A program made the position numbers and the translations under genes. Of a DNA stretch of 64,000 nt, positions 28,778-43,976 are shown piece by piece. Where the stretch lies: contig JAFDZP010000002.1 in NCBI GenBank assembly GCA_018266835.1, forward strand, positions 138,419 to 202,418. The letters run 5' to 3'. This stretch comes from Bacteroidota bacterium. Lineage in GTDB: Bacteria; Bacteroidota; Ignavibacteria; Tepidaquicellales; Tepidaquicellaceae. Position 1 is the first letter of the stretch. Each line of letters opens with the position of its first letter. The notes under the pieces were generated by a model. That model had not been told where the DNA came from, did no database searches, and saw only the letters and a program-made list of their open reading frames with translations.

Positions 28778-28833
28778 CTAATTTGCCGTTGCTAATTTGC
28801 CGTTGCTAATTTGCCGTTGCTAATTTGCCGTTG
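28778..28833. repeat. Four tandem copies of a 14-bp unit across the hpnD stop
   Basis: CTAATTTGCCGTTG is repeated four times without change (28778-28791, 28792-28805, 28806-28819, 28820-28833). The rightmost copy encodes the last residues of HpnD (Thr-Ala-Asn-stop) on the minus strand, and the other three lie in the hpnD-hpnE spacer. This looks like a recent slippage expansion. Confidence 0.95.
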
Positions 28834-29695: not shown

Positions 29696-30568
29696 TTAAA
29701 ATATTGTCTTTATTAAGATCTTAAATTTATCAGAACCGGAAACCACGGGTCTTGTGGTCAAAGTTCTGTAATTTAGCATTTCTATTTTATTTATAATAGT
29801 CATTCCCCCGTAATAAGTTGCTTTTAATTCGTACTTTAATCGGCCGCTTACTAAATTCGGCAGCTCTTCGCCTTTTTTATAGAATTCTTTTGTTTTGGCT
29901 ATAAGCTCTTTTATTATATTAATATAATTTTCATTCTCTACTTTATTATTAAGAAGCTCGTAATTGTAATTATGCTTTTGCAAAATTTCATTTGGAATAT
30001 AAACACGATTGATTTCTAAATCCCGTGCTACATCCTGCCAGAAATTAATAAGCTGTAGTCCTGTGCAGATATAATCTGATAGTGCAAACAATTTTTTGTC
30101 TGTATATCCAAAGATATAAAGCACTAAATGTCCTACAGGATTAGCTGAATACTTTGAATACTCAAGCAGCTCTTCGAATGTATCATACTTATCTTTTACA
30201 GAGTCCTGTTTAAATGCTGTTAACAAATTTTTAAGTTCAATTGAAGGTATATTTAAATCAAGCAATGTTTTATAAAGAGCAATAAAAATGTATTTTGTCT
30301 CTTCTTGCAAATTTTCAAGTTGATTATTTAATACGCAGTCAAGCTCATCTTCCAATAGATTTAATCTTGCAAGCTTTTCTTCTGAAGTTAAAATAGCAGA
30401 GTCAGCTATATCATCTGCGTATCTTGCAAACGAATAAACTGCATATACATATTTTCTTTTATCTTTGGGGATTAAAAAAGAAGCAACAGGAAAGTTTTCG
30501 TAATGATTTTTAGTAATTTTTTCACAGTGGGTAAATGCTTCATCAAAATTAATATTGTTCATTAACAA
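29696..30568 (-). CDS. hpnC: Hydroxysqualene synthase
   Basis: A 290-residue paralogue of HpnD. The HYENFPVASFLIPKDKRKYVYAVYSFARYADDIADS segment, with its Asp-rich motif, is the HpnC signature; the second motif is NFWQDVARDLEINRVYIP. It converts presqualene diphosphate to hydroxysqualene. It begins two bases after the stop of a TPR histidine kinase and abuts hpnD, so kinase, hpnC, hpnD and hpnE are probably co-transcribed. The first two codons (Met-Leu, Met at 3) leave a small choice of start. Confidence 0.9.
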   Translation of the reverse strand: MLMNNINFDEAFTHCEKITKNHYENFPVASFLIPKDKRKYVYAVYSFARYADDIADSAILTSEEKLARLNLLEDELDCVLNNQLENLQEETKYIFIALYKTLLDLNIPSIELKNLLTAFKQDSVKDKYDTFEELLEYSKYSANPVGHLVLYIFGYTDKKLFALSDYICTGLQLINFWQDVARDLEINRVYIPNEILQKHNYNYELLNNKVENENYINIIKELIAKTKEFYKKGEELPNLVSGRLKYELKATYYGGMTIINKIEMLNYRTLTTRPVVSGSDKFKILIKTIF

Positions 30569-30570
30569 AT

Positions 30571-32361
30571 TTAATCGGAAATCAATTTGAATTTCACTCT
30601 AAAATTACTGCCTTCACCGTACACGCTTTCACACCAGACTTCGCCGTCCATGGATTCAATTAACTTCTTAACAATTGATAGACCTAATCCGGTTGAATTT
30701 TCTCCCGCTGTTGGTTTTGTACTGAGCTTTGAAAATTTCTTAAATAGCTTTGGCATTTCTTCCTGCTTAATCCCTACACCTTCATCTATGAATGAAATAA
30801 TAACAAACTGCTGAGAAATATCTTTTTCACATTTAACTGTTACTTCGGATTTCAGAGGAGAATATTTAATTGAATTGGAAAACAAATTTTCGAAAACTTC
30901 ATTCAACCCCATATAGTCTCCGAGAATGATTAATTTGGCACAGTCGCAAATCATATTTATCTTAATACCTTTTCGTTCAGTTAAAACATTGTTATCGTTA
31001 ATAACTTTTTCAAGCACTTCCAGTACATTGATTTCTTTTTTTGCTAAATTAATTCTTCCGCTTTCGATTGCATTTATATCAAGAAAATTTTTAATTATAT
31101 CCTGCATCCGCATCGAAGTAAGCTCGATTTGTTCAAGTTTTCTGTCAATCTGCTCAGGAGTATATTTATCTTTCAGCTTTCTTAAGGCAGATACCGATAA
31201 GGAAATTGCGCTTAGGGGATTTTTCAAGTCATGCGCTGCCATACCTAGAAATTCATTCTTTTCATTATTAAGCTCGAGTAGTTTTTCATTGGCAGTTTTT
31301 AATTCTTCGTTAACTGTCCTATGGAATTCAGCTTCCTGCTGGACGAGTTCAACTCTGTGCATTACATTCAGATATTCTATTTTTGATTTCGATGATTCCT
31401 GATAAGATTCCAGGAAAAGTTGATACTTCTGACTGTAACAATTGTAAGCTTTCTCAAAATCTTTTGTGTCGTGATATACAAGCGCAAGAACATCGTTCAT
31501 ATTTGAAATAATCTGCTTGTAATTATTTTTGAAGGCAATTTCTCCGCATAGATTTAAATACTCAATTGCCTTTTCATAATTCTTAGCATTATAATTATTG
31601 GAGCCTAATAAGAAATAAATTTCAGCAGTATAGTAATCGTAATTATGTTCCTTACTTATTTTCAGCGACTCTGTATAATACTCTAAAGATTTATCCTGGT
31701 CCTTATAATAATCTGCCGCAATGTTGCCGAGATTATTATAACAAATTAAAATTCCCTGATAATCTTCAAGTTTCTTTTTTATTTCAAGTGCTTCATTATA
31801 GTATTTTTCGGCAGGTTCATAATCTTCTTTCCCAAAATAAACATTGCCGAGATTTATAAGAATCATTGCTCTGCCTTTTTCATCGAAGAGTTCATCTTTT
31901 ATCTTCAATGCAAGATTCAAATAATCCAATGCATTATCGAACTCCTTCATCTGAAGGTAGCAGTTCCCTATTGTATTACAACAGGTAGATTCAAGTAATC
32001 TGTTCTTGGTTTTTCTGGTAAGTTTTAATGACTCAAATGCACTCTTAAGACTTTCTGCATAGTCACCATATTTATACTGGCAAACAGCTATAAGATTTCT
32101 GCAATCAGCTTCTTCATTAATCAACCCGAGTGAGCTGAACATCGGCAGAGCTTCCAGTGTTTTTTCGAGTGACTTATCGTAGATTGTACTGCGGTAATAA
32201 ATTCTTCCGGAGAGCAAGAGGCTTTTAGAAAGCAAGGCTTCGTTATCCTTTTCGCGGGCAATTGCTTCAATTTTTAAAGCTTCTTCAAGAGCTTTATCTC
32301 TGTCAGAATCAATTTTTTTCTGATATTCTTCTAATACGGCGTTGAGGATTTTTTCGTCCAT
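30571..32361 (-). CDS. Cytoplasmic TPR-containing sensor histidine kinase
   Basis: A 596-residue kinase without membrane spans. Residues about 40-320 form seven or so tetratricopeptide repeats. A coiled-coil linker (330-370) leads to HisKA with His377 in MAAHDLKNPLSAI. The ATPase domain has Asn496 in ENLFSNSIKYS, DEGVGI at 526-531 and TGLGLSIVKKL from 557. No receiver domain is fused and no response regulator is adjacent. It lies just upstream of hpnC, suggesting linkage of signalling to squalene or membrane lipid synthesis, or merely shared transcription. Confidence 0.9.
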   Translation of the reverse strand: MDEKILNAVLEEYQKKIDSDRDKALEEALKIEAIAREKDNEALLSKSLLLSGRIYYRSTIYDKSLEKTLEALPMFSSLGLINEEADCRNLIAVCQYKYGDYAESLKSAFESLKLTRKTKNRLLESTCCNTIGNCYLQMKEFDNALDYLNLALKIKDELFDEKGRAMILINLGNVYFGKEDYEPAEKYYNEALEIKKKLEDYQGILICYNNLGNIAADYYKDQDKSLEYYTESLKISKEHNYDYYTAEIYFLLGSNNYNAKNYEKAIEYLNLCGEIAFKNNYKQIISNMNDVLALVYHDTKDFEKAYNCYSQKYQLFLESYQESSKSKIEYLNVMHRVELVQQEAEFHRTVNEELKTANEKLLELNNEKNEFLGMAAHDLKNPLSAISLSVSALRKLKDKYTPEQIDRKLEQIELTSMRMQDIIKNFLDINAIESGRINLAKKEINVLEVLEKVINDNNVLTERKGIKINMICDCAKLIILGDYMGLNEVFENLFSNSIKYSPLKSEVTVKCEKDISQQFVIISFIDEGVGIKQEEMPKLFKKFSKLSTKPTAGENSTGLGLSIVKKLIESMDGEVWCESVYGEGSNFRVKFKLISD

Positions 32362-32572
32362 TAAGATGGATAAATTTGCTGCTTATCAAATTTCCCGAAA
32401 GGATGTATTTCAGAATATAGCAAAGAATTGAAGAAAAAAAAGCAGAAATAAAGAAGATTTCATTTATATAAATGGAGTTTTTGCTCAAATAATTTCAATG
32501 GTATTGAATAATATAAAATTATATATTGCATTTCCTGGGCTGGGAAAAATTTCAAAATAATAATCAAATATT

Positions 32573-32701
32573 ATGGAAGAAAAAAAAACAAAAACAGGAA
32601 GCATTATGGTGAAGGGAATAATCGGAATTGTAATACTTACAACTCTTCTCATGATTTATCTAACAATTGTTTTGTTGTATGAAGGTAATACTTTCAGATA
32701 A
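32573..32701 (+). CDS. Small single-span membrane protein, 42 residues
   Basis: ATG at 32573 opens a 42-codon frame: a charged N-terminus MEEKKTKTG, one hydrophobic span IIGIVILTTLLMIYLTIVLL (about 16-35) and a short hydrophilic end. It lies in the spacer between two minus-strand operons. A plain small membrane protein with the N-terminus inside is likely. I do not recognise a family. Spacer length and membrane-protein layout support it, but there is no clear ribosome binding site. Confidence 0.5.
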   Translation: MEEKKTKTGSIMVKGIIGIVILTTLLMIYLTIVLLYEGNTFR

Positions 32702-32730
32702 ATAAATTTGTTTGAAATTTCATCTGCAAT

Positions 32731-33099
32731 TTAACCTCTTTCCTGAAAAATACTGAAAATATTTCCTGCCGGGTCACTGAACTTTGCAGTTATCTCCGGT
32801 GTATGCGCTCCAATTCCATGGGTAATTTTGCCGCCTTCTTTTACAATTTTTTGCATTATTTCTTCAGCATCATCTACCATGATATAAATATTTAATCCGG
32901 AATCACCATGAGGTTTTCGGTTCAGAACCCAAGTTCCGCTTACCTGACCAACTCCGTCATCGAATGCAGTACTCCCATCGTCACGTGTACGGACTTGCCA
33001 TCCAAAAACATTTTTATAAAATGTTGAGGAAGCTTTTATGTCATTTGCCGGGATTTCAACGTAACAAATTTTCCCGTTACCTAATGTTGGTTCACTCAT
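32731..33099 (-). CDS. VOC family (glyoxalase-like) protein
   Basis: A 122-residue vicinal-oxygen-chelate domain: YVEIPANDIKASSTFYKNVFGWQV at the start, then GLNIYIMVDDAEEIMQKI and SDPAGNIFSIFQ at the end. Glu119 near the C-terminus and the N-terminal Glu are candidate metal ligands. Such proteins include lyases, dioxygenases and antibiotic-binding proteins; the substrate cannot be predicted. It is the last gene of the 18-gene minus-strand cluster, 20 bases after the 2H-phosphoesterase-like gene. Confidence 0.88.
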   Translation of the reverse strand: MSEPTLGNGKICYVEIPANDIKASSTFYKNVFGWQVRTRDDGSTAFDDGVGQVSGTWVLNRKPHGDSGLNIYIMVDDAEEIMQKIVKEGGKITHGIGAHTPEITAKFSDPAGNIFSIFQERG

Positions 33100-33119
33100 A
33101 ACATTCTTTAAACTTATTA

Positions 33120-33632
33120 TTATAATTTTATTTTTTCCAGAGTTGTGGCACCTTCATAATTTACTATATCAATTGAAGATATTGTTCCGGATATTTCGAA
33201 ATCGTGTGAGTTCCAGTCGTCCACCATTTTTTTACACGCTATTACATTTGTAGAATTACCAATTGTAATATGGGGAATAAAATCTATATCCAATTGATGA
33301 TAAGGAGCTAATTTGCCACTGTAAAGTTTATCATGCATTTTCCTGATTTTACTCTGGCCTTCATCGGGGACAAGAAATGCATAATAATTATCTATAAAAG
33401 CATCTTTGTTTATTGTAGCGCTCCGTAATGTAAATGAAAAAGGTTCAATTCCCTGCAACTGCTTTTTAATTTCTTCAGTAAATATTTTTTCGGTAAAATC
33501 TTTAACAGGAAAAACTATAGTGAAATGAGTTCTGATTATTGAATACAATGAATCATGCTGCCTTCGGTAATTTTCGATAAGCTTAAAGTCCTTCTCGCTT
33601 AGTTCGGGATATGCTACTGCTAAGAGTTTCAT
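33120..33632 (-). CDS. 2'-5' RNA ligase/2H phosphoesterase family protein
   Basis: A 170-residue protein with the two HxT/S motifs of 2H phosphoesterases: THFTIVFP near residue 36 and PHITIGNS near residue 126, with the usual FTLRSATI strand between. The family hydrolyses cyclic phosphodiesters such as 2',3'-cyclic ends of RNA or ADP-ribose products. It is the only RNA-type enzyme of the 18-gene cluster. Substrate unknown. Confidence 0.85.
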   Translation of the reverse strand: MKLLAVAYPELSEKDFKLIENYRRQHDSLYSIIRTHFTIVFPVKDFTEKIFTEEIKKQLQGIEPFSFTLRSATINKDAFIDNYYAFLVPDEGQSKIRKMHDKLYSGKLAPYHQLDIDFIPHITIGNSTNVIACKKMVDDWNSHDFEISGTISSIDIVNYEGATTLEKIKL

Positions 33633-33722
33633 GTATTCAATGATAACTCTTTTACAAAAAAACTTACACTTATAAATTTCGGACTTTGAGAATTACCCAA
33701 AGTCCGACTTAGTATTCAAATA

Positions 33723-34154
33723 TTAATTGTTACGCGGAGCATCGTAGCTTATCATCCAGGATATACCGAATTTATCCACGCACATACCGAAGTAAGAGCC
33801 CCAGAATGCATCTGCCATTGGCATTATTGTGTTCCCGCCGGCTGTGAGTCCACCGAAAAATTTATCAGCATCTTCTTTGCTATCTGTGCTGACTGAAATA
33901 TTATATCCCCCGCTGCCATATGTTACTGACATTAATGGAGGGCAGTCACTTGCCATAAGCACACTATTTCCAATAGGAAAAGATATGTGCATAATTTTGT
34001 TTCCATCAACTTCACCATGATTCATTGGAACATCACTTGGTACATCTTTATAACGCATTATCATTGCGAACTCACCGCCAAATACTGATTTATAATAATT
34101 CATTGCTTCTTCGCAGTTGCCGTTGAAATTTAAGTAAGGATTTAATGCTGACAT
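33723..34154 (-). CDS. PhnB/YjdN-like VOC protein
   Basis: A 143-residue PhnB-type glyoxalase-fold protein: LNPYLNFNGNCEEAMNYYKSVFGGEF, then GNKIMHISFPIGNSVLMASD, TDSKEDADKFFGGLTAGG and the closing WGSYFGMCVDKFGISWMISY. PhnB homologues are widespread and of unknown reaction. It is transcribed within the AraC-linked cluster, 115 bases after the SnoaL-like gene at 34270. Confidence 0.9.
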   Translation of the reverse strand: MSALNPYLNFNGNCEEAMNYYKSVFGGEFAMIMRYKDVPSDVPMNHGEVDGNKIMHISFPIGNSVLMASDCPPLMSVTYGSGGYNISVSTDSKEDADKFFGGLTAGGNTIMPMADAFWGSYFGMCVDKFGISWMISYDAPRNN

Positions 34155-34269
34155 TTTCTTTTTATTAAAATTATGAAATATTTTTTACTTGAGAGATTTT
34201 TGGGGTTATAAAATATTTAATTATTATTGAGAATCTTTAAATACTTCTCTGAGCTCACCTGTTAACTTT

Positions 34270-34665
34270 TCAGCTAACTCCAAATGCAGCAGGCGTATTT
34301 TGGAATATTTCAACAAGCCACTTACTGTCATGTTTTGCAGCAACTAAAGTTTGAACGGCATTTACTTGCGGAATGATATCCGTTCCTTCAGGATTTACCA
34401 TACTTACAACTGAACGCAGAATGGCAGAATCAGAATTTAGAAATCTTACTTCACGTACTTTATATACATACGGATTCACTTTATGCTCAGTGAAAATCTG
34501 CTGCATCTGTTTTTCTATATTTTCTTTTCCGTCATGCTGACTTCCGTCAAAGCCTATAAAGTTTGCTCTATCTGTGCAAAGTTCTGACATACCTTTAGCA
34601 TCATTTTCATTCCATGCTTGTAATAAATTGTGATATAGTTTTCGAATATCATTTTCGTCCGACAT
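34270..34665 (-). CDS. SnoaL/DUF4440-like NTF2-fold protein
   Basis: A 131-residue NTF2-like protein: IRKLYHNLLQAWNENDAKGMSELCTDRANFIGFDG at the start, then strand-rich segments ending in KWLVEIFQNTPAAF. The SgcJ/EcaC-type (DUF4440) fold is likely, a small cone-shaped pocket with isomerase or binding roles. I chose the ATG at 34665, four bases after the DoxX stop; a start 39 bases earlier would overlap that gene and add an unlike segment. One of three NTF2-like members of the cluster. Confidence 0.8.
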   Translation of the reverse strand: MSDENDIRKLYHNLLQAWNENDAKGMSELCTDRANFIGFDGSQHDGKENIEKQMQQIFTEHKVNPYVYKVREVRFLNSDSAILRSVVSMVNPEGTDIIPQVNAVQTLVAAKHDSKWLVEIFQNTPAAFGVS

Positions 34666-34669
34666 ATTT

Positions 34670-35095
34670 TTATGCTTTATTTTTCTTAAAGAACAAATAA
34701 TCAAGGCTGTACTTCCCTGCTCCTAAGAATATCAGACAGATAAATACTGCAAGCATCTCAACCGGCTGAATAACGTTGTACCACTGGTCCTGCATTTTTA
34801 AATGAGTACTTGTTGCAACTATCATCGTAAAAGCCATAAATGCAGCTGCTGGTCTGACAAATAAACCAAGTACAAGTAGAATACCACCGCCAAACTCACT
34901 CATTGTAGCCATGAATCCCCAGAAAGTTGGCGCAAAAGAAATTCCGAAATTTCCCATTGATTGACCAATCATAGTCCACATTTCCGGTCCCATTTTTATT
35001 TTCATCATTCCATAAATAAGAGCAAAAGCGCAGCCAACCCCAAGTCGCAAAGCTAAAATTCCAAGGTCTTTATTATTTTCAAGAAAATTTTTCAT
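34670..35095 (-). CDS. DoxX family membrane protein
   Basis: A 141-residue protein with four hydrophobic spans and the family marks ALRLGVGCAFALIYGMMKI at the start and ATMSEFGGGILLVLGLFVRPAAAFMAFTMIVAT in the middle. DoxX/DoxD-type proteins sit in the inner membrane and have been linked to thiosulfate, redox-stress and quinone chemistry. Here it is the only integral-membrane member together with the DoxX-like gene at 39782-40159. Confidence 0.88.
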   Translation of the reverse strand: MKNFLENNKDLGILALRLGVGCAFALIYGMMKIKMGPEMWTMIGQSMGNFGISFAPTFWGFMATMSEFGGGILLVLGLFVRPAAAFMAFTMIVATSTHLKMQDQWYNVIQPVEMLAVFICLIFLGAGKYSLDYLFFKKNKA

Positions 35096-35119
35096 GATTA
35101 TTTTTTAAATTCTTTTGAT

Positions 35120-35659
35120 TTACTTTTTCTCGTAATGATTTACAATTACACCAGAAGGTGAAGCTTTCGATTTGACAAGTTTAAGCACTTTCATATCAAT
35201 ACCTTTGAATAAATGTAGTCCATTGCCGAGTATAACAGGAACAGTCATAAGGTAATATTCATCTATAAGTCCTGCCTTTGCAAATGATGTAACAAGTCCG
35301 CATCCGCCGTAAAGAATTAAATTCTTTCCATCCTTCGCTTTTTGTTTTTTTATTTCTTCTTCTATATTAGCGGATACCGTAACATCGGGATATTCCATTG
35401 AAGTAAGAGTTTTAGAAAAAACTATTTTAGGAAGGGCATTTATCTTCTCTGCAAATTCAGAAGTGTCGTTTGGCCAGTAATCTAAAAATCCTTTTGCCAT
35501 TCCTCTTCCGAGAAGAATTAAATCGGACGAGTCTAAAAGCTCTGCTGCAGGACTTCCGGATTCAGTTCCTACATTAGCAAACATCCAGTCAAGCTCACCG
35601 TTTGGTCCGGCAACATAACCGTCGATGGAAGTGTACATTTGCAATATTACTTTTCTCAT
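35120..35659 (-). CDS. RibD C-terminal/DHFR-like reductase 1
   Basis: A 179-residue dihydrofolate reductase-like (RibD C-terminal) protein: MRKVILQMYTSIDGYVAGPNGELDW opening, LLGRGMAKGFLDYWP, KIVFSKTL, and the nucleotide-binding LILYGGCGLVTSFAKAGLIDEYYLMTVPVILG. These proteins probably use NAD(P)H to reduce unknown substrates; some give antibiotic or antifolate tolerance. It is very similar to the next gene (35670-36218), an evident tandem duplicate, and it is the third of four such genes in the cluster in transcription order reversed. Confidence 0.9.
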   Translation of the reverse strand: MRKVILQMYTSIDGYVAGPNGELDWMFANVGTESGSPAAELLDSSDLILLGRGMAKGFLDYWPNDTSEFAEKINALPKIVFSKTLTSMEYPDVTVSANIEEEIKKQKAKDGKNLILYGGCGLVTSFAKAGLIDEYYLMTVPVILGNGLHLFKGIDMKVLKLVKSKASPSGVIVNHYEKK

Positions 35660-35669
35660 ATTAGTAAAA

Positions 35670-36218
35670 TTATTTTTTAGGTTCGTAATGATTTATTATT
35701 TCTCCTGAAGGAGTAGGGGTTGATTCTATAAGCTTTAGAACTTTCATATCCATTCCATCAAATAAATGCTTACCCTTTCCGAGAATTACCGGAACAGTGG
35801 AAAGGTAATAGTCATCAACAATACCCAGCTTTGCAAATGATGTTGCCAGTCCGCAGCCGCCGTATAAAATTATATTTTTACCCGGCTTGGCTTTCTCTTC
35901 TTTAATTTTTTCCGCAATATCTTTTGATATAGTAACATTGTCCCAGACTATATCTGATTCCTTCATAGTCCGTGAAAAAATTACTTTGGGAAGTGAGTTT
36001 ATTCTTTTTGCAAAGTTTGATGTTTCTTTTGGCCAGTAATCGAGAAATTCTTTTGACATTCCCCGTCCTAAAAGAATCAGGTCAGATTCCTCTAATAATT
36101 TTTCTGCCATTTTAAAGCCTTCTTCACCGCTGTTTTCAAGCATCCAGTCCAGTTCACCATTAGGTCCTGCCACATATCCGTCCATCGATGTATTCATTTG
36201 CAAAATTACTTTTCTCAT
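35670..36218 (-). CDS. RibD C-terminal/DHFR-like reductase 2
   Basis: A 182-residue paralogue of the neighbouring reductase, with the same GYVAGPNGELDWML, LLGRGMSKEFLDYWP, and LYGGCGLATSFAKLGIVDDYYLSTVPVILG motifs. Differences cluster near residue 90 and at the C-terminus. Its ATG overlaps the stop of the 36215-36784 gene by four bases, so the two are translationally coupled. Substrate unknown. Confidence 0.9.
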   Translation of the reverse strand: MRKVILQMNTSMDGYVAGPNGELDWMLENSGEEGFKMAEKLLEESDLILLGRGMSKEFLDYWPKETSNFAKRINSLPKVIFSRTMKESDIVWDNVTISKDIAEKIKEEKAKPGKNIILYGGCGLATSFAKLGIVDDYYLSTVPVILGKGKHLFDGMDMKVLKLIESTPTPSGEIINHYEPKK

Positions 36219-36784
36219 GATAATTTTATTTTAATTTTTTCAGGCTGATAATAGAGAACTATCACACCTGAATTTAATTTTCTTGTTTTAAAAAGATTTA
36301 ACTTTATTTTACCGTCAATATTTTTGAACATAGGACTTCCTTTTCCTAAAATAACGGGATTCAAAATAATTCTGTATTCATCTATTAATCCGAGATTTGA
36401 AAGATAAGAAACAATTTCACCGCTACCGAATATCACGATATCTTTGCCGGGAAGTTTTTTCAATTCGTGAATTTCTTCAGGAATATTTTCTTTAATTATT
36501 CTCGAATTATTCCAATCGGCTTTTGAAAGTGTTTTTGAAAGAACTATTTTAGGAAGCTTATTCATCATATGTGTTATCGTGGCATCATTATCAGTCGCAT
36601 TAGGCCAGTAAGCTGCCATATGCTCATAAGTTTTTCTACCATACAATATGGTATCGACTGTTTTGAACATTTCTTTTACGTAATCAAAAAACTCTCCTTC
36701 GACAACAAACCAATCCAATTCTCCTTTGAGCCCTTCAAAGAATCCGTCGAGCGTTACAAGATTTGATACAATTACTTTTCTCAT
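36215..36784 (-). CDS. RibD C-terminal/DHFR-like reductase 3
   Basis: A 189-residue member of the same family but more divergent: MRKVIVSNLVTLDGFFEGLKGELDWFV, LYGRKTYEHMAAYWP, KIVLSKTL and IVIFGSGEIVSYLSNLGLIDEYRIILNPVILGKG. The GSGE loop replaces GGCG of the tandem pair, so the cofactor pocket or substrate probably differs. Fifteen bases separate it from the 68-residue protein upstream. Confidence 0.9.
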   Translation of the reverse strand: MRKVIVSNLVTLDGFFEGLKGELDWFVVEGEFFDYVKEMFKTVDTILYGRKTYEHMAAYWPNATDNDATITHMMNKLPKIVLSKTLSKADWNNSRIIKENIPEEIHELKKLPGKDIVIFGSGEIVSYLSNLGLIDEYRIILNPVILGKGSPMFKNIDGKIKLNLFKTRKLNSGVIVLYYQPEKIKIKLS

Positions 36785-36799
36785 CTAAAAAAAATTTAT

Positions 36800-37006
36800 T
36801 TACTCTAATACTTCACAAATAAAACCTTTACAAATTAAAACTTCAGAAATTTTCTCCGGTATAACTTCATCGCTTTCAACCCGAAGGATTTTATCGCAGT
36901 CATCGAGGTCATAATTTATATCACCGCCAAACATGGATTGCAGCTCGGCGGTAATTTTATCTGCGATTATTTTATCTTCAACATTTGTTTTAAAAACTTC
37001 CACCAT
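36800..37006 (-). CDS. Small acidic hypothetical protein, 68 residues
   Basis: A 68-residue acidic protein beginning VEVFKTNVEDKIIADKITAELQ and ending IPEKISEVLICKGFICEVLE, with the middle DLDDCDKILRVESDEV. The beta-alpha-beta order and spacing suggest a ferredoxin-like or small signalling fold. I have seen similar short proteins described only as hypothetical in Bacteroidota, and no function can be given. It lies in the AraC-linked cluster with 14- and 15-base gaps on its sides, which supports real translation. Confidence 0.65.
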   Translation of the reverse strand: MVEVFKTNVEDKIIADKITAELQSMFGGDINYDLDDCDKILRVESDEVIPEKISEVLICKGFICEVLE

Positions 37007-37020
37007 TGTCCCGATAAAAT

Positions 37021-37506
37021 TTATTTTCCTTCAGCTGCATCTTCAAGCTTTTGAATATCAATCTTCTTCATCTGGTATAAAGCATGCAGCACCCTTTTAG
37101 TGGTATCACCGCCTTTTGATATAAGCTCGAATAAACGCTTTGGAGTGATCTGCCATGAAAGGCCGAATTTATCCTTAAGCCAACCGCATTGTGACTCCTG
37201 CCCGCCATCTGCAGTAAGCGCATTCCAGTACTTATCTACTTCTTCCTGTGATTCACAGTTGATGACAAATGAAATTGACTCATTGAATTTGAACATAGGC
37301 CCGGCGTTCATTGCTCCGTATTTAACTCCGTCAAGCTCAAATGAAAGCGTAAATACTGACCCTTCGTCCTTACCGGTCATTTGGGCGCTCTCTTTATCAA
37401 GATATCGGACTTCAGTTATTTTTGAATTGGGGATTAAAGATGTATAAAGCTTTGCAGCTTCTTCTGCCTGTGAATCGTACCACAGGTATGGCATCACTTT
37501 GCTCAT
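37021..37506 (-). CDS. PhnB-like VOC family protein (3-demethylubiquinone methyltransferase-type fold)
   Basis: A 161-residue protein opening KVMPYLWYDSQAEEAAKLYTSLIPNS and containing VFTLSFELDGVKYGAMNAGPMFKFNESISFVINCES plus KDKFGLSWQITPKRL. This is the PhnB-like branch that was once named 3-demethylubiquinone-9 methyltransferase, although it has a glyoxalase fold and no SAM site. Substrate unknown. It is one of four VOC/PhnB members in the cluster. Confidence 0.9.
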   Translation of the reverse strand: MSKVMPYLWYDSQAEEAAKLYTSLIPNSKITEVRYLDKESAQMTGKDEGSVFTLSFELDGVKYGAMNAGPMFKFNESISFVINCESQEEVDKYWNALTADGGQESQCGWLKDKFGLSWQITPKRLFELISKGGDTTKRVLHALYQMKKIDIQKLEDAAEGK

Positions 37507-37586
37507 AATGTTTTTAATTTTATATTTTTAAATTTTTTTTTGAGAAGTTAAATTAAACTGAATTATTAATTACTCCTTATTAATTA

Positions 37587-37997
37587 TTAATTAGAAGCCG
37601 GCATTTTGCTCATATCCATATATACATATTCCCAATAATGTCCGTCTAAATCCATGAAACCGCGACTATACATAAAATCAGGGTCCTGACTTTGAGGAGA
37701 TTTGTCCGCTCCTGCATCAACAGCCTTCTTTATTATATCGTCTATTTCTTCCCTGCTTTCTGCAGAGAGACATATAATAGCTTCGTTACACTTTGATGTA
37801 TCTGCTATTTCTTTTTTAGTGAAGCCTTTAAAGAACGGCTCAACTAAAAGCATTACAAAGATATTTTCGCTGACTATCATGCATGTTGCATTTTCATCAG
37901 TGAACTGAGGGTTGAATGTATAACCAAGTTTGGTAAAAAACTCGACAGTCTTTTTAAGATCTTTTACAGGTAAGTTTACGAAAATTTGTTTTGACAT
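37587..37997 (-). CDS. VOC family glyoxalase/bleomycin resistance-like protein
   Basis: A 136-residue VOC protein: IFVNLPVKDLKKTVEFFTKLGYTFNPQFTDENATCMIVSENIFVMLL, then GFMDLDGHYWEYVYMDMSKMP, which is the typical YaiA/YkcA-like end. Metal-ligand residues are possible at the His of GHYWEY. The gap to the upstream PhnB-like gene is 80 bases and holds an AT-rich stretch related to the 19943 repeat. Confidence 0.88.
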   Translation of the reverse strand: MSKQIFVNLPVKDLKKTVEFFTKLGYTFNPQFTDENATCMIVSENIFVMLLVEPFFKGFTKKEIADTSKCNEAIICLSAESREEIDDIIKKAVDAGADKSPQSQDPDFMYSRGFMDLDGHYWEYVYMDMSKMPASN

Positions 37998-38021
37998 TTT
38001 TTTATGTAATTGTTTTAGTTT

Positions 38022-38462
38022 TTAATTTTGTTCTGCTAGTTCTTTAAATTTTGCAAAAGCCTTTTCCCAGAGACCTGACATCATGTCGTACATTTCTTCA
38101 TTCATATCACCTTCCAGTTCTAAAGTCGTAACACCTTCTTTTTCATTCATAATATAAGTTTCTCTTCCTCCTGCAAAATCTTTTGCCATATCACTTTCGT
38201 AATCTTCTTTGCCGTTGACAAGCATACCCGTATATTCCATTGAAAGAATTTCCGTCGGATCATTTTTTATAATTTTAGCAACGATTCCGTTACCGCTATT
38301 GTCCTGAAAATATGCCGTGCTGCCGACTTTCCAGTCAGTAACTGCATGTGATTCCGGATGAAACTCTGCATACCATATTCTTGTATATCTGTCTTCAGTT
38401 AACACTTGCCAGACTTTTTCTTTTGAAGCATTTATCTCAATTGTTTTTCTGATTTTCTTCAT
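38022..38462 (-). CDS. SRPBCC/AHSA1-type protein
   Basis: A 146-residue START-like domain: MKKIRKTIEINASKEKVWQVLTEDRYTRIWYAEFHPESHAVTDWKVGS and GETYIMNEKEGVTTLELEGD. AHSA1 relatives bind hydrophobic ligands or regulate Hsp90-like chaperones; most bacterial ones have no known ligand. It is in the cluster between the VOC gene and an NTF2-like gene. A second AHSA1-like gene lies at 59095-59511. Confidence 0.88.
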   Translation of the reverse strand: MKKIRKTIEINASKEKVWQVLTEDRYTRIWYAEFHPESHAVTDWKVGSTAYFQDNSGNGIVAKIIKNDPTEILSMEYTGMLVNGKEDYESDMAKDFAGGRETYIMNEKEGVTTLELEGDMNEEMYDMMSGLWEKAFAKFKELAEQN

Positions 38463-38498
38463 TGTATAATTTTAAATTATTAAAAAGTTTGTTTTTGT

Positions 38499-38855
38499 TT
38501 ATGTTTCCCTGCCGAAGTAAACGTCTACAGATTTTATTTTTCCGTTTTCTGCAGTAAAAAATTCGGTGTTACGAAAAGATTTACCGTCTTTCATTATACA
38601 TTCATATCTGGCAAATGCTTCGCTGCCCTCTGCAAAAATTTTTTCAACAGTAATTTTTTTCATATCAGCGCTGTGCGGCCAGCATCTTTTGAAATATTCT
38701 TCCCTGTTTATAAAATCATCGTACGGACTTGAGAAAACGAAATCATCACTTAAAATTTCTTCTATTACTTCCCGTGTTTTGTCTTCATAAGCCTGGAAAC
38801 ATTTTCTTATTAGTCCGGCAATATTTGAGTTAATATTTGAGTTATCGTTTTCCAT
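38499..38855 (-). CDS. SnoaL-like NTF2-fold protein A
   Basis: A 118-residue NTF2-like protein: IAGLIRKCFQAYEDKTREVIEEILSDDFVFSSPYDDFINREEYFKRCWP and RYECIMKDGKSFRNTEFFTAENGKIKSVDVYFGRET. The FRNTEFF and IKSVDVYFG pattern is typical of SnoaL-like proteins. It is closely related to the next gene, 38888-39226, a tandem duplicate. Reaction unknown. Confidence 0.88.
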   Translation of the reverse strand: MENDNSNINSNIAGLIRKCFQAYEDKTREVIEEILSDDFVFSSPYDDFINREEYFKRCWPHSADMKKITVEKIFAEGSEAFARYECIMKDGKSFRNTEFFTAENGKIKSVDVYFGRET

Positions 38856-38887
38856 ATTTAATTGTTAGAAAGTTTTTAAATTGTAAA

Positions 38888-39226
38888 TTACCTTCCGAAG
38901 TAAACATCTATCGATTTTATTTTCCCGTTATCCATAACAAAAAATTCCGTATTGCGAAAAGAATTTCCGCCGTTCATTTCTGCTTTATATCTTACAAATG
39001 CCTCGCTTCCCTCATCAAAAATTTTTTCTACACCTATTGATTTAAATTTTGAGCTGTGGAACATGCAGCTTTTTAAGTGTTCTTCTTTATTAATATAGTC
39101 ATCCTTAGGACTTGAGAAGACGAAATCATCACTTAAAAGCTCTCCAAAAGTATCCCAGTCTTTTTCCATATATACCTCAAAGTATTTACGTATTACTTCT
39201 GCAATATCTGATTTATTATTTTCCAT
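38888..39226 (-). CDS. SnoaL-like NTF2-fold protein B
   Basis: A 112-residue paralogue of the neighbouring protein, with IAEVIRKYFEVYMEKDWDTFGELLSDDFVFSSPKDDYINKEEHLKSCMFH and RYKAEMNGGNSFRNTEFFVMDNGKIKSIDVYFGR. Same fold and length, changed pocket residues. The tandem pair suggests expansion within the cluster, as with the reductases. No function can be assigned. Confidence 0.88.
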   Translation of the reverse strand: MENNKSDIAEVIRKYFEVYMEKDWDTFGELLSDDFVFSSPKDDYINKEEHLKSCMFHSSKFKSIGVEKIFDEGSEAFVRYKAEMNGGNSFRNTEFFVMDNGKIKSIDVYFGR

Positions 39227-39242
39227 ATCTTCTATTAAAAAA

Positions 39243-39752
39243 TTAATCGTCGTATTTAATTCCTTCGTAGCCTAAAAGTCTGCGCCATAAAATAATTTGT
39301 CCTATAAGATTCGCCTCCCTGTAAGTCATAAATGCAATCAAATCAAAGTAAGGCATTTTCATATCAGGCATTTCCGGCATTTCAAAAGTGCTGTCAAGTT
39401 TTTCATCGGTTATATTCATCAAAACTTCTCTTAAAGCGGGAGCAGCTATATCGGCATCTTTTTTAAAATCCGCCATTGAAGGATACTTAGCATCATCCTT
39501 GATTCCCTGATGATTTTTAAATAATTCATCTGCATTCTGTTTCAGCTCACTGCCGCTCAGCATGTTTGCCAGCTGCATTCTTTCCTGAATAAAACTTCCA
39601 GCAAGCCATGCAGCATGGTTAGCTTTAGTGTTAAGACGGTTTTGTGCATCCTGTTCAGATATACCCTCAATTGCTTTATTAAAAAATTTTGTATGCATAT
39701 CGTACAGAACTACTAGGGGGTACATTCTGTCACTAACCGGCTTTGTTTTCAT
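39243..39752 (-). CDS. DinB-family protein
   Basis: A 169-residue four-helix-bundle DinB/YfiT-like protein: MYPLVVLYDMHTKFFNKAIEGISEQDAQNRLNTKANHAAWLAGSFIQERMQLANML, with His45 in the NHAAWLAGS motif and a later LIAFMTYREANLIGQIILWRRLLG. A classical DinB has three metal-binding His; the first His is seen at MHTKFF, the second in NHAAW, but the third position reads YREAN where HxxxH-like motifs are usual. The loss suggests no metal or a different ligand. Role unknown; some relatives are thiol transferases. Confidence 0.8.
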   Translation of the reverse strand: MKTKPVSDRMYPLVVLYDMHTKFFNKAIEGISEQDAQNRLNTKANHAAWLAGSFIQERMQLANMLSGSELKQNADELFKNHQGIKDDAKYPSMADFKKDADIAAPALREVLMNITDEKLDSTFEMPEMPDMKMPYFDLIAFMTYREANLIGQIILWRRLLGYEGIKYDD

Positions 39753-39781
39753 TTTAAAATTATTTTAATTATTCAAAAAAT

Positions 39782-40159
39782 TTAATTAACTGTTTGAGGT
39801 TTTTCCAGTTTCTTCCATAGGAAATAGGATACTAACATCAAAGCGAGAAGGATAAAAGGGAATATTACAAGAAATAACCCGTCACTGGCGTATGCCCTAG
39901 AAGCTGAAGCACCCAGAAAATGAAAAGTGCATCCGGCATAAGCCCACTCTTTAAGAGTTTTGAATTTATTTTGAAAAATTCCGATGCCTCCGAGGATTTT
40001 AAACGTTCCCAAAATTGTCATTATATAAACCGGATAACCGAGATGCCTCATAATTTCCTGCCCTTCCTCCACTCTCATTACTCCGCTGACTCCATCCATT
40101 ATCATGAACAGACAAAAAATGGTTGTTACAATCCAGTATGTAATTTTTATTTTTTTCAT
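39782..40159 (-). CDS. DoxX-like membrane protein
   Basis: A 125-residue protein with four hydrophobic helices: KITYWIVTTIFCLFMIMDGVSGVMRVEEGQEIMRHLGYPVYIMTILGTFKILGGIGIFQ. This is the DoxX_2 (DUF417/DoxX-like) branch often encoded with AraC or ECF regulators. It is a second DoxX-type protein beside that at 34670-35095. Function unknown, inner membrane. Confidence 0.85.
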   Translation of the reverse strand: MKKIKITYWIVTTIFCLFMIMDGVSGVMRVEEGQEIMRHLGYPVYIMTILGTFKILGGIGIFQNKFKTLKEWAYAGCTFHFLGASASRAYASDGLFLVIFPFILLALMLVSYFLWKKLEKPQTVN

Positions 40160-40170
40160 TTTATTAGATG

Positions 40171-40746
40171 TTATCTTTTAACTTCATAAATAAGTTTAAC
40201 AATACCGGATTTATAAACATGAGAGTCCTTTAGAACAAGTTTAGTTATATCCACATCTTTGAACATTGGAATTCCTTTGCCGATTACAATTGGATTTAAA
40301 AAAATTCTTAACTCATCCAGTAAATCCAGCCTCATAAATTCCTGTACAATGCTCGGGCTGCCGAATATCATCATACTTTTTCCTTCTTCATTTTTCATCT
40401 TTGTCACTTCTTCTTTTATATTATCTTTTATCTGAACTGTGTTATTCCACAACTCTTCTTTATTTGAATCAATTGTTTTTGAGAAAACCACCTTACGAAC
40501 ATCTTCAACCCACTTTGCGTGATTCAGACTTGTCTCATCGACATTTTCCTTGTTCAGCAATGTCGGCCAGTAGTTTTTCATCATGTAATAAACCACTCTG
40601 CCATAGATAGCAGTATCTATATTCTTCATATGTTCCATTATTTCTTTGTACATATCCGGGTCAAGATTTATCCAGTTCATCTCTCCGTTTGGTCCTGCAA
40701 CGAAGCCGTCAAGCGACATGTGCATTAACGAAATTACTTTTCTCAT
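40171..40746 (-). CDS. RibD C-terminal/DHFR-like reductase 4
   Basis: A 191-residue member of the reductase family: MRKVISLMHMSLDGFVAGPNGEMNWINLD, TAIYGRVVYYMMKNYWP, KVVFSKTI, and MMIFGSPSIVQEFMRLDLLDELRIFLNPIVIGKG. It lies near the promoter end of the cluster, second after the DUF1428-like gene. The GSPS loop differs again from the other three, supporting functional differences among the four. Substrate unknown. Confidence 0.9.
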   Translation of the reverse strand: MRKVISLMHMSLDGFVAGPNGEMNWINLDPDMYKEIMEHMKNIDTAIYGRVVYYMMKNYWPTLLNKENVDETSLNHAKWVEDVRKVVFSKTIDSNKEELWNNTVQIKDNIKEEVTKMKNEEGKSMMIFGSPSIVQEFMRLDLLDELRIFLNPIVIGKGIPMFKDVDITKLVLKDSHVYKSGIVKLIYEVKR

Positions 40747-40763
40747 TTTATTATTTTAATTAA

Positions 40764-41150
40764 TTATAATTCAACAAATGCTTTAAAGCCTCCGTACATC
40801 ATTTTTTTCATATCGAAGAGCGGCATCATGTTCATCATCTTTTTCATTCTTTCATCAGCCATAACTTTTTTATTAACCTTATTTCGGTTGGCTTTAGAAA
40901 CGAAGCTGACCATAGAAGTTACAATTACTTCATTTTTTGTTGCCTTCAACAATGCGGGATATTTATCTGCAGGAAGATCATCTCCGATAAACTCACGGCA
41001 CTCAAGCGCGCCGTACTCTACAACAATTTTTGCATACTGTACTGCAATTTTTTTGTAAGCTGGGAAATTCTTTTTAGAAATTACCATCAGATAAGCATCA
41101 ACGTACCCTTTAGCACTTTTATTTGTTTTTGCTTTTACCATCTCTTTCAT
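40764..41150 (-). CDS. DUF1428-like protein, first gene of the AraC-linked cluster
   Basis: A 128-residue protein with SAKGYVDAYLMVISKKNFPAYKKIAVQYAKIVVEYGALECREFIGDD, which is the DUF1428 core (dimeric alpha-beta barrel fold), and DERMKKMMNMMPLFDMKKMMYGGFKAFVEL at the end. The family has no established reaction. It lies first on the minus strand, 132 bases from the AraC start, so it probably carries the leader of the transcript. Confidence 0.85.
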   Translation of the reverse strand: MKEMVKAKTNKSAKGYVDAYLMVISKKNFPAYKKIAVQYAKIVVEYGALECREFIGDDLPADKYPALLKATKNEVIVTSMVSFVSKANRNKVNKKVMADERMKKMMNMMPLFDMKKMMYGGFKAFVEL

Positions 41151-41282
41151 TTTCCTTTGGTTAATTATTAAAGTTGTACAAATATACAGGCATTGGTTCT
41201 CTCATCAAAGAGGTAAATACGGCAATCTAAGGGGTTGAATACGACAACCATATTTTATATTTTTATTTATACTAATATTGAT
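41151..41282. promoter_or_regulatory. Divergent promoter region with candidate AraC operator
   Basis: The spacer between the 18-gene cluster and the AraC gene has two direct repeats, ATACGGCAA at 41217-41225 and ATACGACAA at 41239-41247. Their starts are 22 bases apart, about two helix turns, the form expected for an AraC-family dimer. Apart from this the region is AT-rich. The assignment is inference from spacing and location. Confidence 0.5.
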
Positions 41283-42266
41283 ATGAAAAAGCACATTTCA
41301 ATCCTGATTCCCCACGGTCACACAAGCGTTTCGAATATTGAAGGAACGCATCAGATATTTTCTGAGGTCAATTCCCTGCTTGCATCAATGGGCAAAAAAC
41401 CCGTTTTTGATATACAATTAGTAGGAATTTCAAAAGAAACACCGCAAAGAAACGGATTATTCAAAATTACTCCGGACATACTTACTAAAGATTTAAACAA
41501 AACGGATTTAATTATAATACCCGCTATTCACGGAGACCCCGAGAAGGTAATGGAAATGAATAAGGAATTTGTTCCGTGGATAATGAAGCAATACAGAGGC
41601 GGAGCGGAAATTGTCAGCTTTTGCATAGCCACCTTCTTTCTTGCTAACATGGGATTGCTGAAAGGAAAACAATGCGCAACTCACTGGAGATTTGCAAATG
41701 AATTCAGAAAAATGTTTCCGGATGCTAATCTTGTTGACGATAAAATAATGACTGAAGATGACGGTATTTATACAAGCGGTGGAGCGTATTCATTTTTAAA
41801 TCTTAATTTATACTTAATAGAAAAATTTGCGGGACGTGATGTTGCTATTGTAATTGCAAAAGCGTTTATGATTGATATTGATAAAATCAGCCAGTCTCCT
41901 TTTATTATTTTCCAGGGACAGAAATCACACGAAGATGATATAATAAAAAAAGCGCAGGATTATATAGAAGGAAATTTCAGAGAAAAAATCACAATAGATG
42001 AACTTGCGCATGAAGTTGCGCTTAGCAGAAGAAGTCTTGAAAGAAGATTTAAACATGCAACATCAAACACCGTTACAGAATATATTCAGAGAGTAAAAAT
42101 AGAAGCCGCAAAGAAAAGTCTGGAATCAACAAACGAGAATGTAAATGAAGTAATGTACAATGTAGGATATGCCGACCCGAAGGCATTCAGAAGTATATTT
42201 AAAAGAATTACAGGACTTTCACCTGTAGCTTACAGAAATAAATACAACCCCGCAGTAGCAGCGTAG
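41283..42266 (+). CDS. GlxA-type AraC family transcriptional regulator
   Basis: A 327-residue regulator. Residues about 1-190 form a DJ-1/PfpI-like (GATase1) domain with IPHGHTSVSNIEGTHQIFSEVN, IPAIHGDP and FCIATFFLANMGLLKGKQCATHW, where Cys may form the nucleophile-elbow position. The C-terminal two helix-turn-helix units (about 230-322) include ITIDELAHEVALSRRSLERRFKHATSNTVTEYIQR and GYADPKAFRSIFKRITGLSPVAYR. I use the ATG at 41283; a TTG 48 bases earlier is possible but would cross the second candidate operator. It is divergent from the cluster and is its likely regulator. Confidence 0.9.
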   Translation: MKKHISILIPHGHTSVSNIEGTHQIFSEVNSLLASMGKKPVFDIQLVGISKETPQRNGLFKITPDILTKDLNKTDLIIIPAIHGDPEKVMEMNKEFVPWIMKQYRGGAEIVSFCIATFFLANMGLLKGKQCATHWRFANEFRKMFPDANLVDDKIMTEDDGIYTSGGAYSFLNLNLYLIEKFAGRDVAIVIAKAFMIDIDKISQSPFIIFQGQKSHEDDIIKKAQDYIEGNFREKITIDELAHEVALSRRSLERRFKHATSNTVTEYIQRVKIEAAKKSLESTNENVNEVMYNVGYADPKAFRSIFKRITGLSPVAYRNKYNPAVAA

Positions 42267-42272
42267 ATAATT

Positions 42273-43976
42273 TTATTTCCATACAGGAATTTTTATATAG
42301 CTGTCATTGAACCATTTTATTTGTAACGGTTCTCCTGCATCGTTCATTGTTTCATCATTAACGTCTTTGCCGCTTCCGTAATTTATGACATCATAAGGAT
42401 GTTTGTTCACGTTAAGAATAATCAACAACCTGCTTCCAATATTTATCTGCTTGCAAACCAATCTTGTATTATCGAAATCAATTACCTCTTTTTTACCGGG
42501 CTGAAGCAAATTCCTTTTACCCGCATCTTTTGTATAGCTTGCCCGTCCTAAATATCTTGTAAGATAAAAATACTTAAAGTCCGGAGTTACCTCATAAAAT
42601 GCAATAGATACATCCATATCTTTCTTATTTATAATTGTTTTCAAAGAGCCAAAAAAGGAACCGGTAATATTGAATGTTTTTTGAAAAGGTTCAGTTTCGA
42701 AGACCAATCCGTTACTTGCGTCTAAAGAATCATTAATAATAAACGGAGTGAAATAATTATTCTGAGTTGTTCTGTCTTTGAAATTAACTGTTTGCTCAAG
42801 AAATGAATTCTTCTTAGAATTTTCAGTCGACAATAAATAATTACTTCCTATTTTGGAATCGCTTAAATAAAAAGTCAGAGTATCATTATTCATTTTTTCT
42901 AATGAAGGAACATGTTTCCATTCATTAGCACCCATGATTTCGAAATTAATTTTATCTTTTAAAATTTCAGGCTTCTCTGCTCCTTTAAAAATATAATCAA
43001 GCCATTGATATGCCAGTTTCCTCATACTTATATTTGCAGCAGAATCAATTTTATACCCCATTAAATCAGCAGATGCTTTTCCCTGTCCGCCCCAATGGTC
43101 ATATGGTCCGATTACAAGATAATGATTTGCATTATTATTATATTGATAATGAAGTTTAAAATATTTCAAAGCTCCGATTTGTGAGCCGTCATAATATCCC
43201 GTTGTAGTTAGCAGAGGAATATTTATCTTTGCAAATTCATTTTCATTGGGAATCATGTTTTTCCAGTAGCTGTCATAATCTGGATGACTCAGCCATTTCT
43301 GAAAAATCGAATTAGGTTGTCCGGCAAGTGTATCCATAGAGCGGAATGAAGTCCCCTTCTCATACCAAGTGTCATTCAGATTTTCAGGCAGCCGTTTATA
43401 TTTGTAAATATTGTCATTGCTCCAGCTAAGTACTGCAGGATAAGGAATATTATTTTCCATTGGTGAATCATATCCGGGCATTACTGCAACCTGTGGAACA
43501 ATTGTTTTTAATGCGGGATGTAAATTTTTAGCCGCAGCCCATTGAACAAATCCTGTGTAGCTGCCGCCGAACATACCGACTTCACCGTTACTCCATGTCT
43601 GTTTTGTAATCCAGTCAATTACATCATAAACATCATCGCCGTCATGTTCGTATGGAGCGTAGTCATTTAAATCAGTTCTTATACCTCTTGAGTATGCAAC
43701 TATTCCTACGTAATCCCTATCCGCTGATTGTTTGCCGAATATTGCATCACCGGGTCCCTGGTAATAAGTTGTATAAAATAAAATAACGGGAAGACGTTTA
43801 TTGTTATCTTTTTTCTGAACGATTGTCGCACAGATTTCAAATCCGTCCCTCGTTTTTATCAGAACAGAATCCTGAATACTATAAACACTGTCTGAAAGAT
43901 TTTGTGTGGATTGCTGTGCTGATGTGATATTAGAACATATCACAGCTATAAATAAAACGATGAGGAGTTTTTTCAA
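42273..43976 (-). CDS. CocE/NonD-type secreted hydrolase (X-Pro dipeptidyl peptidase S15 family)
   Basis: A 567-residue alpha/beta hydrolase with a signal peptide ending in ITSAQ. The nucleophile Ser139 is in GGSYTGF, oxyanion and Asp regions follow (TTTGYYDGS), and the catalytic His is in GPYDHWGGQG. The late part (about 390-565) is a jelly-roll domain, as in cocaine esterase and glutaryl-7-ACA acylase. It would cleave acyl or proline-type bonds in the periplasm. It ends seven bases after the convergent AraC gene. Confidence 0.9.
   Translation of the reverse strand: MKKLLIVLFIAVICSNITSAQQSTQNLSDSVYSIQDSVLIKTRDGFEICATIVQKKDNNKRLPVILFYTTYYQGPGDAIFGKQSADRDYVGIVAYSRGIRTDLNDYAPYEHDGDDVYDVIDWITKQTWSNGEVGMFGGSYTGFVQWAAAKNLHPALKTIVPQVAVMPGYDSPMENNIPYPAVLSWSNDNIYKYKRLPENLNDTWYEKGTSFRSMDTLAGQPNSIFQKWLSHPDYDSYWKNMIPNENEFAKINIPLLTTTGYYDGSQIGALKYFKLHYQYNNNANHYLVIGPYDHWGGQGKASADLMGYKIDSAANISMRKLAYQWLDYIFKGAEKPEILKDKINFEIMGANEWKHVPSLEKMNNDTLTFYLSDSKIGSNYLLSTENSKKNSFLEQTVNFKDRTTQNNYFTPFIINDSLDASNGLVFETEPFQKTFNITGSFFGSLKTIINKKDMDVSIAFYEVTPDFKYFYLTRYLGRASYTKDAGKRNLLQPGKKEVIDFDNTRLVCKQINIGSRLLIILNVNKHPYDVINYGSGKDVNDETMNDAGEPLQIKWFNDSYIKIPVWK

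Follow-up and report, generated by a model that had tools for sequence, protein, structure and literature searches.

We analysed a 64,000-nucleotide stretch, the window, of the 4.0-Mb genome of a Bacteroidota bacterium (Ignavibacteria, Tepidaquicellaceae; contig JAFDZP010000002.1). All coordinates are positions in this window. At 32731-41150 the minus strand carries 18 small open reading frames (ORFs), which face a GlxA-type AraC regulator encoded on the plus strand (41283-42266, start codon ATG 41283). The two are separated by a 132-bp intergenic region containing a conserved operator. The locus is more interesting for its regulation than for its length: it is a regulon of a GATase1-AraC regulator (GATR) with a swappable array of cargo genes. 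No description of this regulon was found in the open-access literature that was searched.

The gene families listed by the first-pass annotation, made from the sequence alone, were all recovered. Pfam searches returned four VOC/PhnB, four RibD_C, three NTF2/SnoaL and two DoxX genes, and the single AHSA1/Polyketide_cyc2, DinB_2, 2'-5' RNA ligase-like 2H, DUF1428 and 68-residue genes were also seen. Read away from the regulator, the array begins with gene 18 (DUF1428, 40764-41150; PF07237, 1e-23), followed by gene 17 (RibD17, a RibD_C/YyaP-like reductase domain, 40171-40746; PF01872), gene 16 (DoxX_2, 39782-40159; PF13564, 4e-19) and gene 15 (DinB15, DinB-like, 39243-39752; PF12867, 1e-4, just under the cut-off). 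Genes 14 (NTF14, 38888-39226; PF14534/PF12680) and 13 (NTF13, 38499-38855; PF12680) are NTF2/SnoaL-like. Gene 12 (AHSA12, AHSA1/SRPBCC, 38022-38462; PF08327, PF10604) and gene 11 (VOC11, 37587-37997; PF22677, PF00903) each have array homologs in 26 loci. Gene 10 (PhnB10, 37021-37506; PF06983, 2e-44) encodes a PhnB/3-dmu-9_3-mt-like VOC protein and gene 9 (36800-37006; array homologs in 31 loci) the 68-residue protein, of an unnamed family. Genes 8 (RibD8, 36215-36784), 7 (RibD7, 35670-36218) and 6 (RibD6, 35120-35659) are RibD_C genes (PF01872). They precede gene 5 (DoxX5, 34670-35095; PF07681, 1.5e-13), gene 4 (an SgcJ/EcaC-type NTF2, DUF4440, 34270-34665; PF14534, with TIGR02246 above cut-off) and gene 3 (PhnB3, a PhnB/YjdN-like VOC, 33723-34154; PF06983, array homologs in 40 loci), probably the last gene of the main transcript. 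Beyond it lie gene 2 (2H phosphoesterase, 33120-33632; PF13563) and gene 1 (VOC1, 32731-33099; PF00903), whose membership is doubtful.

The gaps are short, as the first-pass annotation had described, ranging from -4 to 36 bp with three exceptions of 80, 90 and 115 bp, and there is a single ATGA overlap (RibD7/RibD8, 36215-36218). Note that gene 4 most likely starts at ATG 34665 rather than TTG 34704; with this start a 35-bp overlap disappears. The 90-bp gap between genes 3 and 2, which folds at -23 kcal/mol (z -4.2, with 0 of 200 shuffles equally stable), contains a hairpin with a 12-bp stem (33679-33707, minus strand), a possible terminator with no U-run immediately behind the stem. Homologs of the 2H gene occur in 0 of 98 related loci, and gene 1 has weak homologs only, in 17 arrays (24-30% in the loci of the same-genus comparison). 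Based on the strong hairpin and the missing 2H homologs, we count 16 genes as the secure array; genes 2 and 1 may lie outside the operon. A sigma factor gene, which an ECF41/ECF42-type regulon (ECF, extracytoplasmic function) would have beside its cargo, was not found among the genes at 30571-43976.

Operator and promoter between regulator and array

Read on the array strand, the intergenic region contains a direct repeat, and downstream of it lies TTTG-N19-TATATTTG. The repeat forms a 38-bp operator (41210-41247, minus strand, TTGTCGTATTCAACCCCTTAGATTGCCGTATTTACCTC) with the half-sites TGTCGT and TGCCGT at a 22-bp period. Next to it are a -33 element, TTTG (41206-41209), and, 19 bp further on, the -7 box TATATTTG (41179-41186), which is of the TAnnTTTG type. 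Both the TAnnTTTG consensus and its place at -12 to -5 have been described (PMC9723704). Alignment of the regions upstream of all regulators yielded the 38-bp consensus tTGTCGCAATCAACCCcttAgATTGtCGTATTTaCACc, again a 22-bp direct repeat, with half-sites TGTCGC-N16-TGTCGT. It thus has the paired half-sites, about 21 bp apart, of GATR binding sites.

The operator was found in 74 of 98 loci when scanned with the full matrix. In leave-one-out scoring, where the tested locus was dropped from the matrix and its close relatives were retained, 67 loci reached at least 6 bits, compared to 1.1% of 1,365 control upstream regions. Presence of the operator went along with the array: it was detected in 62 of the 68 loci having at least two cargo genes (Fisher p=2e-7, although p values of this kind overstate independence, as the loci share ancestry). 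The genome of the window contains exactly one operator site at up to three mismatches. Among 395 genomes of the phylum, 36 contained the operator, all but one as a single site, while a reversed-pattern control gave 2 matches. When loci were retrieved by the operator only, the regulator was encoded within about 1.5 kb in 26 of 28 loci outside the window's genome. This near-independent evidence shows that operator and regulator belong together. The single exceptional genome among those scanned has three operator sites inside 7 kb (G334:C11:421160-427910), where a split regulon is possible.

The distance from operator to promoter is also conserved. A TAnnTTTG -7 box follows the operator at 23 bp in 49 of 67 loci, and at 21-25 bp in 58 of 67, whereas TTTG at -33 is rare in loci other than that of the window. 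The operator thus adjoins the -35/-33 region at a fixed distance from the -7 box, as in class II AraC promoters. The fixed -7 spacing and the rarely kept -33 TTTG suggest an AraC activator that replaces the -33 contact. Transcription of the array is predicted to start near 41174, giving a leader of about 24 nt and placing the operator at about -73 to -36. On the array strand, this promoter (41179-41209) is the only strict match to the -33/-7 pattern. A scan for sigma-70-type promoters, the wrong promoter type for this group, scored barely above shuffles and was discarded. In many loci the operator is only about 22 bp from the start codon of the regulator, and from this position the regulator likely represses itself. 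Taken together, the conserved, genome-unique operator between regulator and array strongly supports the earlier proposal that the array is regulated.

Related loci and turnover of the array

Orthologs of the regulator with 47-83% identity occur in Ignavibacteria, Bacteroidota and Balneolota, and 21 of 59 relatives encode it (E 1e-30). The 80 named loci with a regulator ~60-72% identical are mainly from Bacteroidota, with additional ones from Balneolota and Ignavibacteriota and one KSB1 record. Several of the named loci with close regulators are from Ignavibacteriaceae or Melioribacter, and the locus is shared by other genomes of this class and order.

To compare gene content, the ORFs of the 98 related loci were clustered. 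The ortholog arrays contain VOC/PhnB, RibD_C/YyaP, AHSA1/SRPBCC, DinB, DoxX and DUF1801 proteins and the 68-residue family, in varying combinations. Cargo genes lie upstream of, and divergent from, the regulator, as seen for RibD (43/43), PhnB3-like (44/46), AHSA12 (25/25) and 68-residue family (31/33) genes. Of the genes at the eight nearest upstream positions, 319 of 710 belong to cargo families, compared to 23 of 660 on the downstream side. The arrangement is thus not a product of chance, although the figure is descriptive because the cargo list was partly defined from the same 98 loci. The array of the window is the longest seen, the longest cargo run elsewhere being 11 genes. DUF1801, a further SRPBCC family, a 146-residue family and AlkD-type DNA alkylation repair proteins occur in other arrays and are missing from the window; sister arrays also carry YdeI/OmdA and an MFS gene. 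The ~146-residue family (L034:8313-8723, L071:9450-9887 and relatives) has no Pfam match; its 34 genes are spread over 25 loci, and each of them is divergent from the regulator. By eye it resembles GyrI-like effector-binding proteins.

A genome of the same genus (G001, locus L029) has preserved both flanks, with a histidine kinase and a pair of squalene-synthase-like genes on one side and a DUF2809-like gene on the other. Its array consists only of DUF1428, RibD17, VOC11, PhnB10 (91% identical) and PhnB3, and their order matches that of the window. The window has additional blocks of five, six and two genes between and after these five. In the window, 28820-32361 holds two tandem squalene/phytoene-synthase-like genes (SQS_PSY) with 25.7% mutual identity, beside a TPR histidine kinase (TPR/HisKA). 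Just past the short array of G001, near the position of 2H and VOC1 in the window, is an Mrr-type restriction endonuclease gene (L029:8469-9644).

The first-pass annotation had proposed expansion by duplication and capture. Tandem duplication is evident from RibD6 and RibD7, which are 66% identical sisters (support 100/100), and from NTF13 and NTF14, which are 62% identical. The other two RibD_C genes fall apart from this pair, with array genes of other genomes: RibD17 in a multi-phylum clade of array RibDs (99/99), and RibD8 with an array gene of Bacteroidetes (95/86). With related genes present in arrays of other families in the order, the additional blocks may reflect gain in the window, as by capture, or loss in G001.

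Scattering of these genes in sister genomes, which had been named as evidence against an island, was mostly not observed: relatives of DinB15 adjoin the regulator in most genomes having them. However, some cargo also occurs with regulators of the ECF or ArsR type, or in other places. One array of DoxX, RibD_C, YCII, PhnB and DUF1801 genes lies downstream of an ECF sigma factor (L159:5865-14215, G049). Another genome has a second, operator-free array that ends in an ArsR-type HTH gene (L166:6679-11467, G037), containing the 68-residue family, DoxX5, VOC, AHSA1 copies, DinB15 and DUF1428. Similar cargo under different controllers suggests a common pool of genes, for which the regulator-operator pair is one platform of several. 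The view of the array as a set of lone genes is rejected in light of the operator and the recurrent cargo.

Regulator, cargo proteins and explanations of the array

The regulator (327 residues) combines a GATase1/DJ-1 domain and an AraC HTH domain (Pfam DJ-1_PfpI, PF01965, and HTH_18, PF12833/PF00165, above cut-off), the two-domain build of GATRs. Residues C114, T133, H134, W135 and G166 are invariant in 99 of 99 sequences. The 20-residue spacing between Cys114 and His134 equals that of Cys106 and His126 in DJ-1, and the Foldseek neighbours of the regulator are 3er6, DJ-1 and isocyanide hydratase. The invariant pair, its spacing and these folds make it plausible that Cys114 serves as a reactive sensor or as the attachment site of a covalent ligand. 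In the NCBIfam search the regulator fell far short of the ortholog cut-offs for FtrA (164 of 425 bits) and GbdR (103 of 480), and CdhR was absent among the 25 families listed.

The Pseudomonas GATRs CdhR, GbdR, SouR and ArgR recognize GGTCGC half-sites with a 15-bp spacer (PMC5806209). They share the two-domain build, and CdhR is likewise divergent from its target operon. The half-sites are also closely similar, being GGTCGC at a 21-bp period for CdhR and TGTCGC/TGTCGT at a 22-bp period here. The operons under these GATRs serve the catabolism of amino acids and quaternary amines, whereas the proposed targets of the window's regulator are swappable small enzymes.

Among the cargo proteins, RibD6 and RibD17 have Bacillus subtilis YyaP (2gd9) as their nearest solved relative, a member of the 'dihydrofolate reductase family' whose own function is listed as hypothetical. 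The nearest PDB relative of PhnB10 is 1u69. RibD_C genes were considered as exclusive to the regulon; this holds in the window's genome (four of five copies, the fifth sitting in a 356-residue frame, as for true RibD) but fails in relatives. Gene 9 gave no match in Pfam or NCBIfam. Its AlphaFold2 model (pLDDT 94) has the beta-alpha-beta-beta-alpha-beta fold of HMA domains, with Ccc2a, Atox1 and ATP7B domains as top Foldseek matches (TM up to 0.85). In contrast to these, the family has a near-invariant D-L-x-D-C-D, and no MxCxxC metal-binding motif (CxxC) was found in an alignment of 22 sequences. The family is not specific to the regulon, as weaker paralogs occur elsewhere. Two of them are beside ECF sigma factor genes (L169:6979-7224 in the window's genome, G000:C2:549999-550220; and L167:10549-10842 in G019).

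We consider it probable that the locus is a single-target regulon in which an AraC activator induces interchangeable proteins for defence against small molecules. The GlxA-type regulator would bind as a dimer to the 22-bp direct repeat of the operator (41210-41247). A small molecule, either reactive or xenobiotic, would activate it, and the activated regulator would recruit RNA polymerase to the -7 box (41179-41186). One long mRNA would then encode about 16 small proteins, from DUF1428 to PhnB3, or perhaps 18. The RibD_C/YyaP, VOC, SRPBCC, NTF2, DinB and DoxX proteins would work in parallel rather than in one pathway, by binding, reducing or conjugating toxic small molecules or by repair after their action. 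Regulator and operator are the fixed part, while cargo is gained, lost and duplicated.

While regulation of the array is well supported, its role in detoxification or modification, already suggested by the first-pass annotation, is plausible from the family mix, the AlkD and YdeI/OmdA genes of sister arrays and a mycobacterial parallel. Under genotoxic stress, SiwR of Mycobacterium smegmatis switches on the DinB-family genes beside it, and its deletion has no viability phenotype (PMC10693628). Like the activator proposed here it acts locally, and in some relatives the neighbouring genes include glyoxalase-like ones (PMC10693628), but it is an actinobacterial WYL regulator of two genes. The closest published parallel in design is ECF41 with its COE genes, a conserved regulator with exchangeable cargo. 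ECF41 has a conserved promoter motif, and the adjacent gene, the only target detected in the two species tested, is exchanged between unrelated enzyme types (PMC3426412). ECF41, however, is a sigma factor usually with one cargo gene, compared to a putative AraC activator with up to 16-18 in the window.

Several observations weigh against the single-target defence regulon, in addition to the shared ancestry of the loci. Six loci have arrays but lack the operator at the regulator, and in 12 others the operator comes with one cargo gene or none. Several cargo proteins have no known activity. DinB15, with its DinB_2 match just under the Pfam cut-off, has no PDB relative, and by eye the usual positions of the three-His metal site are apparently replaced. 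The hairpin at 33679-33707 and the long gaps could split the transcript. Finally, related GATRs sense metabolites (carnitine, glycine betaine), and the inducer could be nutritional.

The DJ-1-like features of the regulator also allow for a redox regulon, in which Cys114 is directly oxidised and the array responds to oxidative or thiol stress rather than to a xenobiotic ligand. The DJ-1 fold and the invariant Cys114/His134 pair fit this explanation, as does the induction of the parallel SiwR system by H2O2 (PMC10693628). However, the glutamate position of DJ-1 is variable in the regulators (the best candidate column has E in 66 of 99 sequences), and no thioredoxin, peroxidase or catalase is among the cargo families identified. 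We therefore regard a redox regulon as unlikely, if still a serious candidate.

A substrate-induced biosynthetic or catabolic operon, with SnoaL/NTF2, SRPBCC, RibD_C and DoxX proteins as tailoring steps of one natural-product or metabolic route, is less credible. SnoaL-like and Polyketide_cyc2 domains are found in tailoring enzymes, the array includes an SgcJ/EcaC-type NTF2, and the related CdhR and GbdR control catabolic operons (PMC5806209). Yet the array lacks a core synthase, a ligase or a dehydrogenase set, four RibD_C and four VOC proteins in parallel are unlike one linear route, and neighbouring species retain regulator and operator but differ in the content of the array.

We give similarly little credence to passive accumulation of horizontally acquired small genes in a permissive spot, with only the first few being regulated. 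The exceptional length of the array, the 80-115 bp internal gaps with the hairpin, the 2H gene found in no other locus and a tRNA-Ser gene 2.4 kb past the regulator speak for this explanation. Against this, the same cargo families recur upstream of the regulator in several phyla, five genes keep order and flanks in the same-genus genome, and the array strand has a sole strict promoter, next to the operator. An integron-like array, its cassettes captured by an integrase at attC sites, is rejected as extremely improbable: the many same-strand small genes of mixed families and their high turnover are reminiscent of one, but most gaps (4-36 bp, plus one overlap) are too short for attC, the repeats detected mostly stem from similar coding sequences of paralogs, and no IntI is nearby, the tyrosine recombinase genes of the genome lying well over 100 kb away.

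Implications for orphan enzyme families

With its control site conserved across several phyla and the controlled genes being swapped again and again, the array has the look of an inducible defence 'tool tray'. More tentatively, and as a possibility short of an expectation, the GATR with its reactive cysteine and the conserved operator may form a fixed inducible expression site in several phyla, to which defence genes are repeatedly added, and from which they are lost, without a dedicated recombinase. Each species would then answer a shared class of toxic molecules with a multi-enzyme set of its own.

VOC, RibD_C/YyaP, DinB, AHSA1/SRPBCC, DUF1801, DUF1428 and DoxX proteins are common in bacteria and their substrates are orphan. 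The defined 38-bp operator allows the regulon to be located in any genome, and an HMA-like family, as yet uncharacterised, stands out among the genes that recur in these arrays. Conserved operator and sensor offer a direct handle: once the one inducer is found, it may lead to the substrates of many orphan families.

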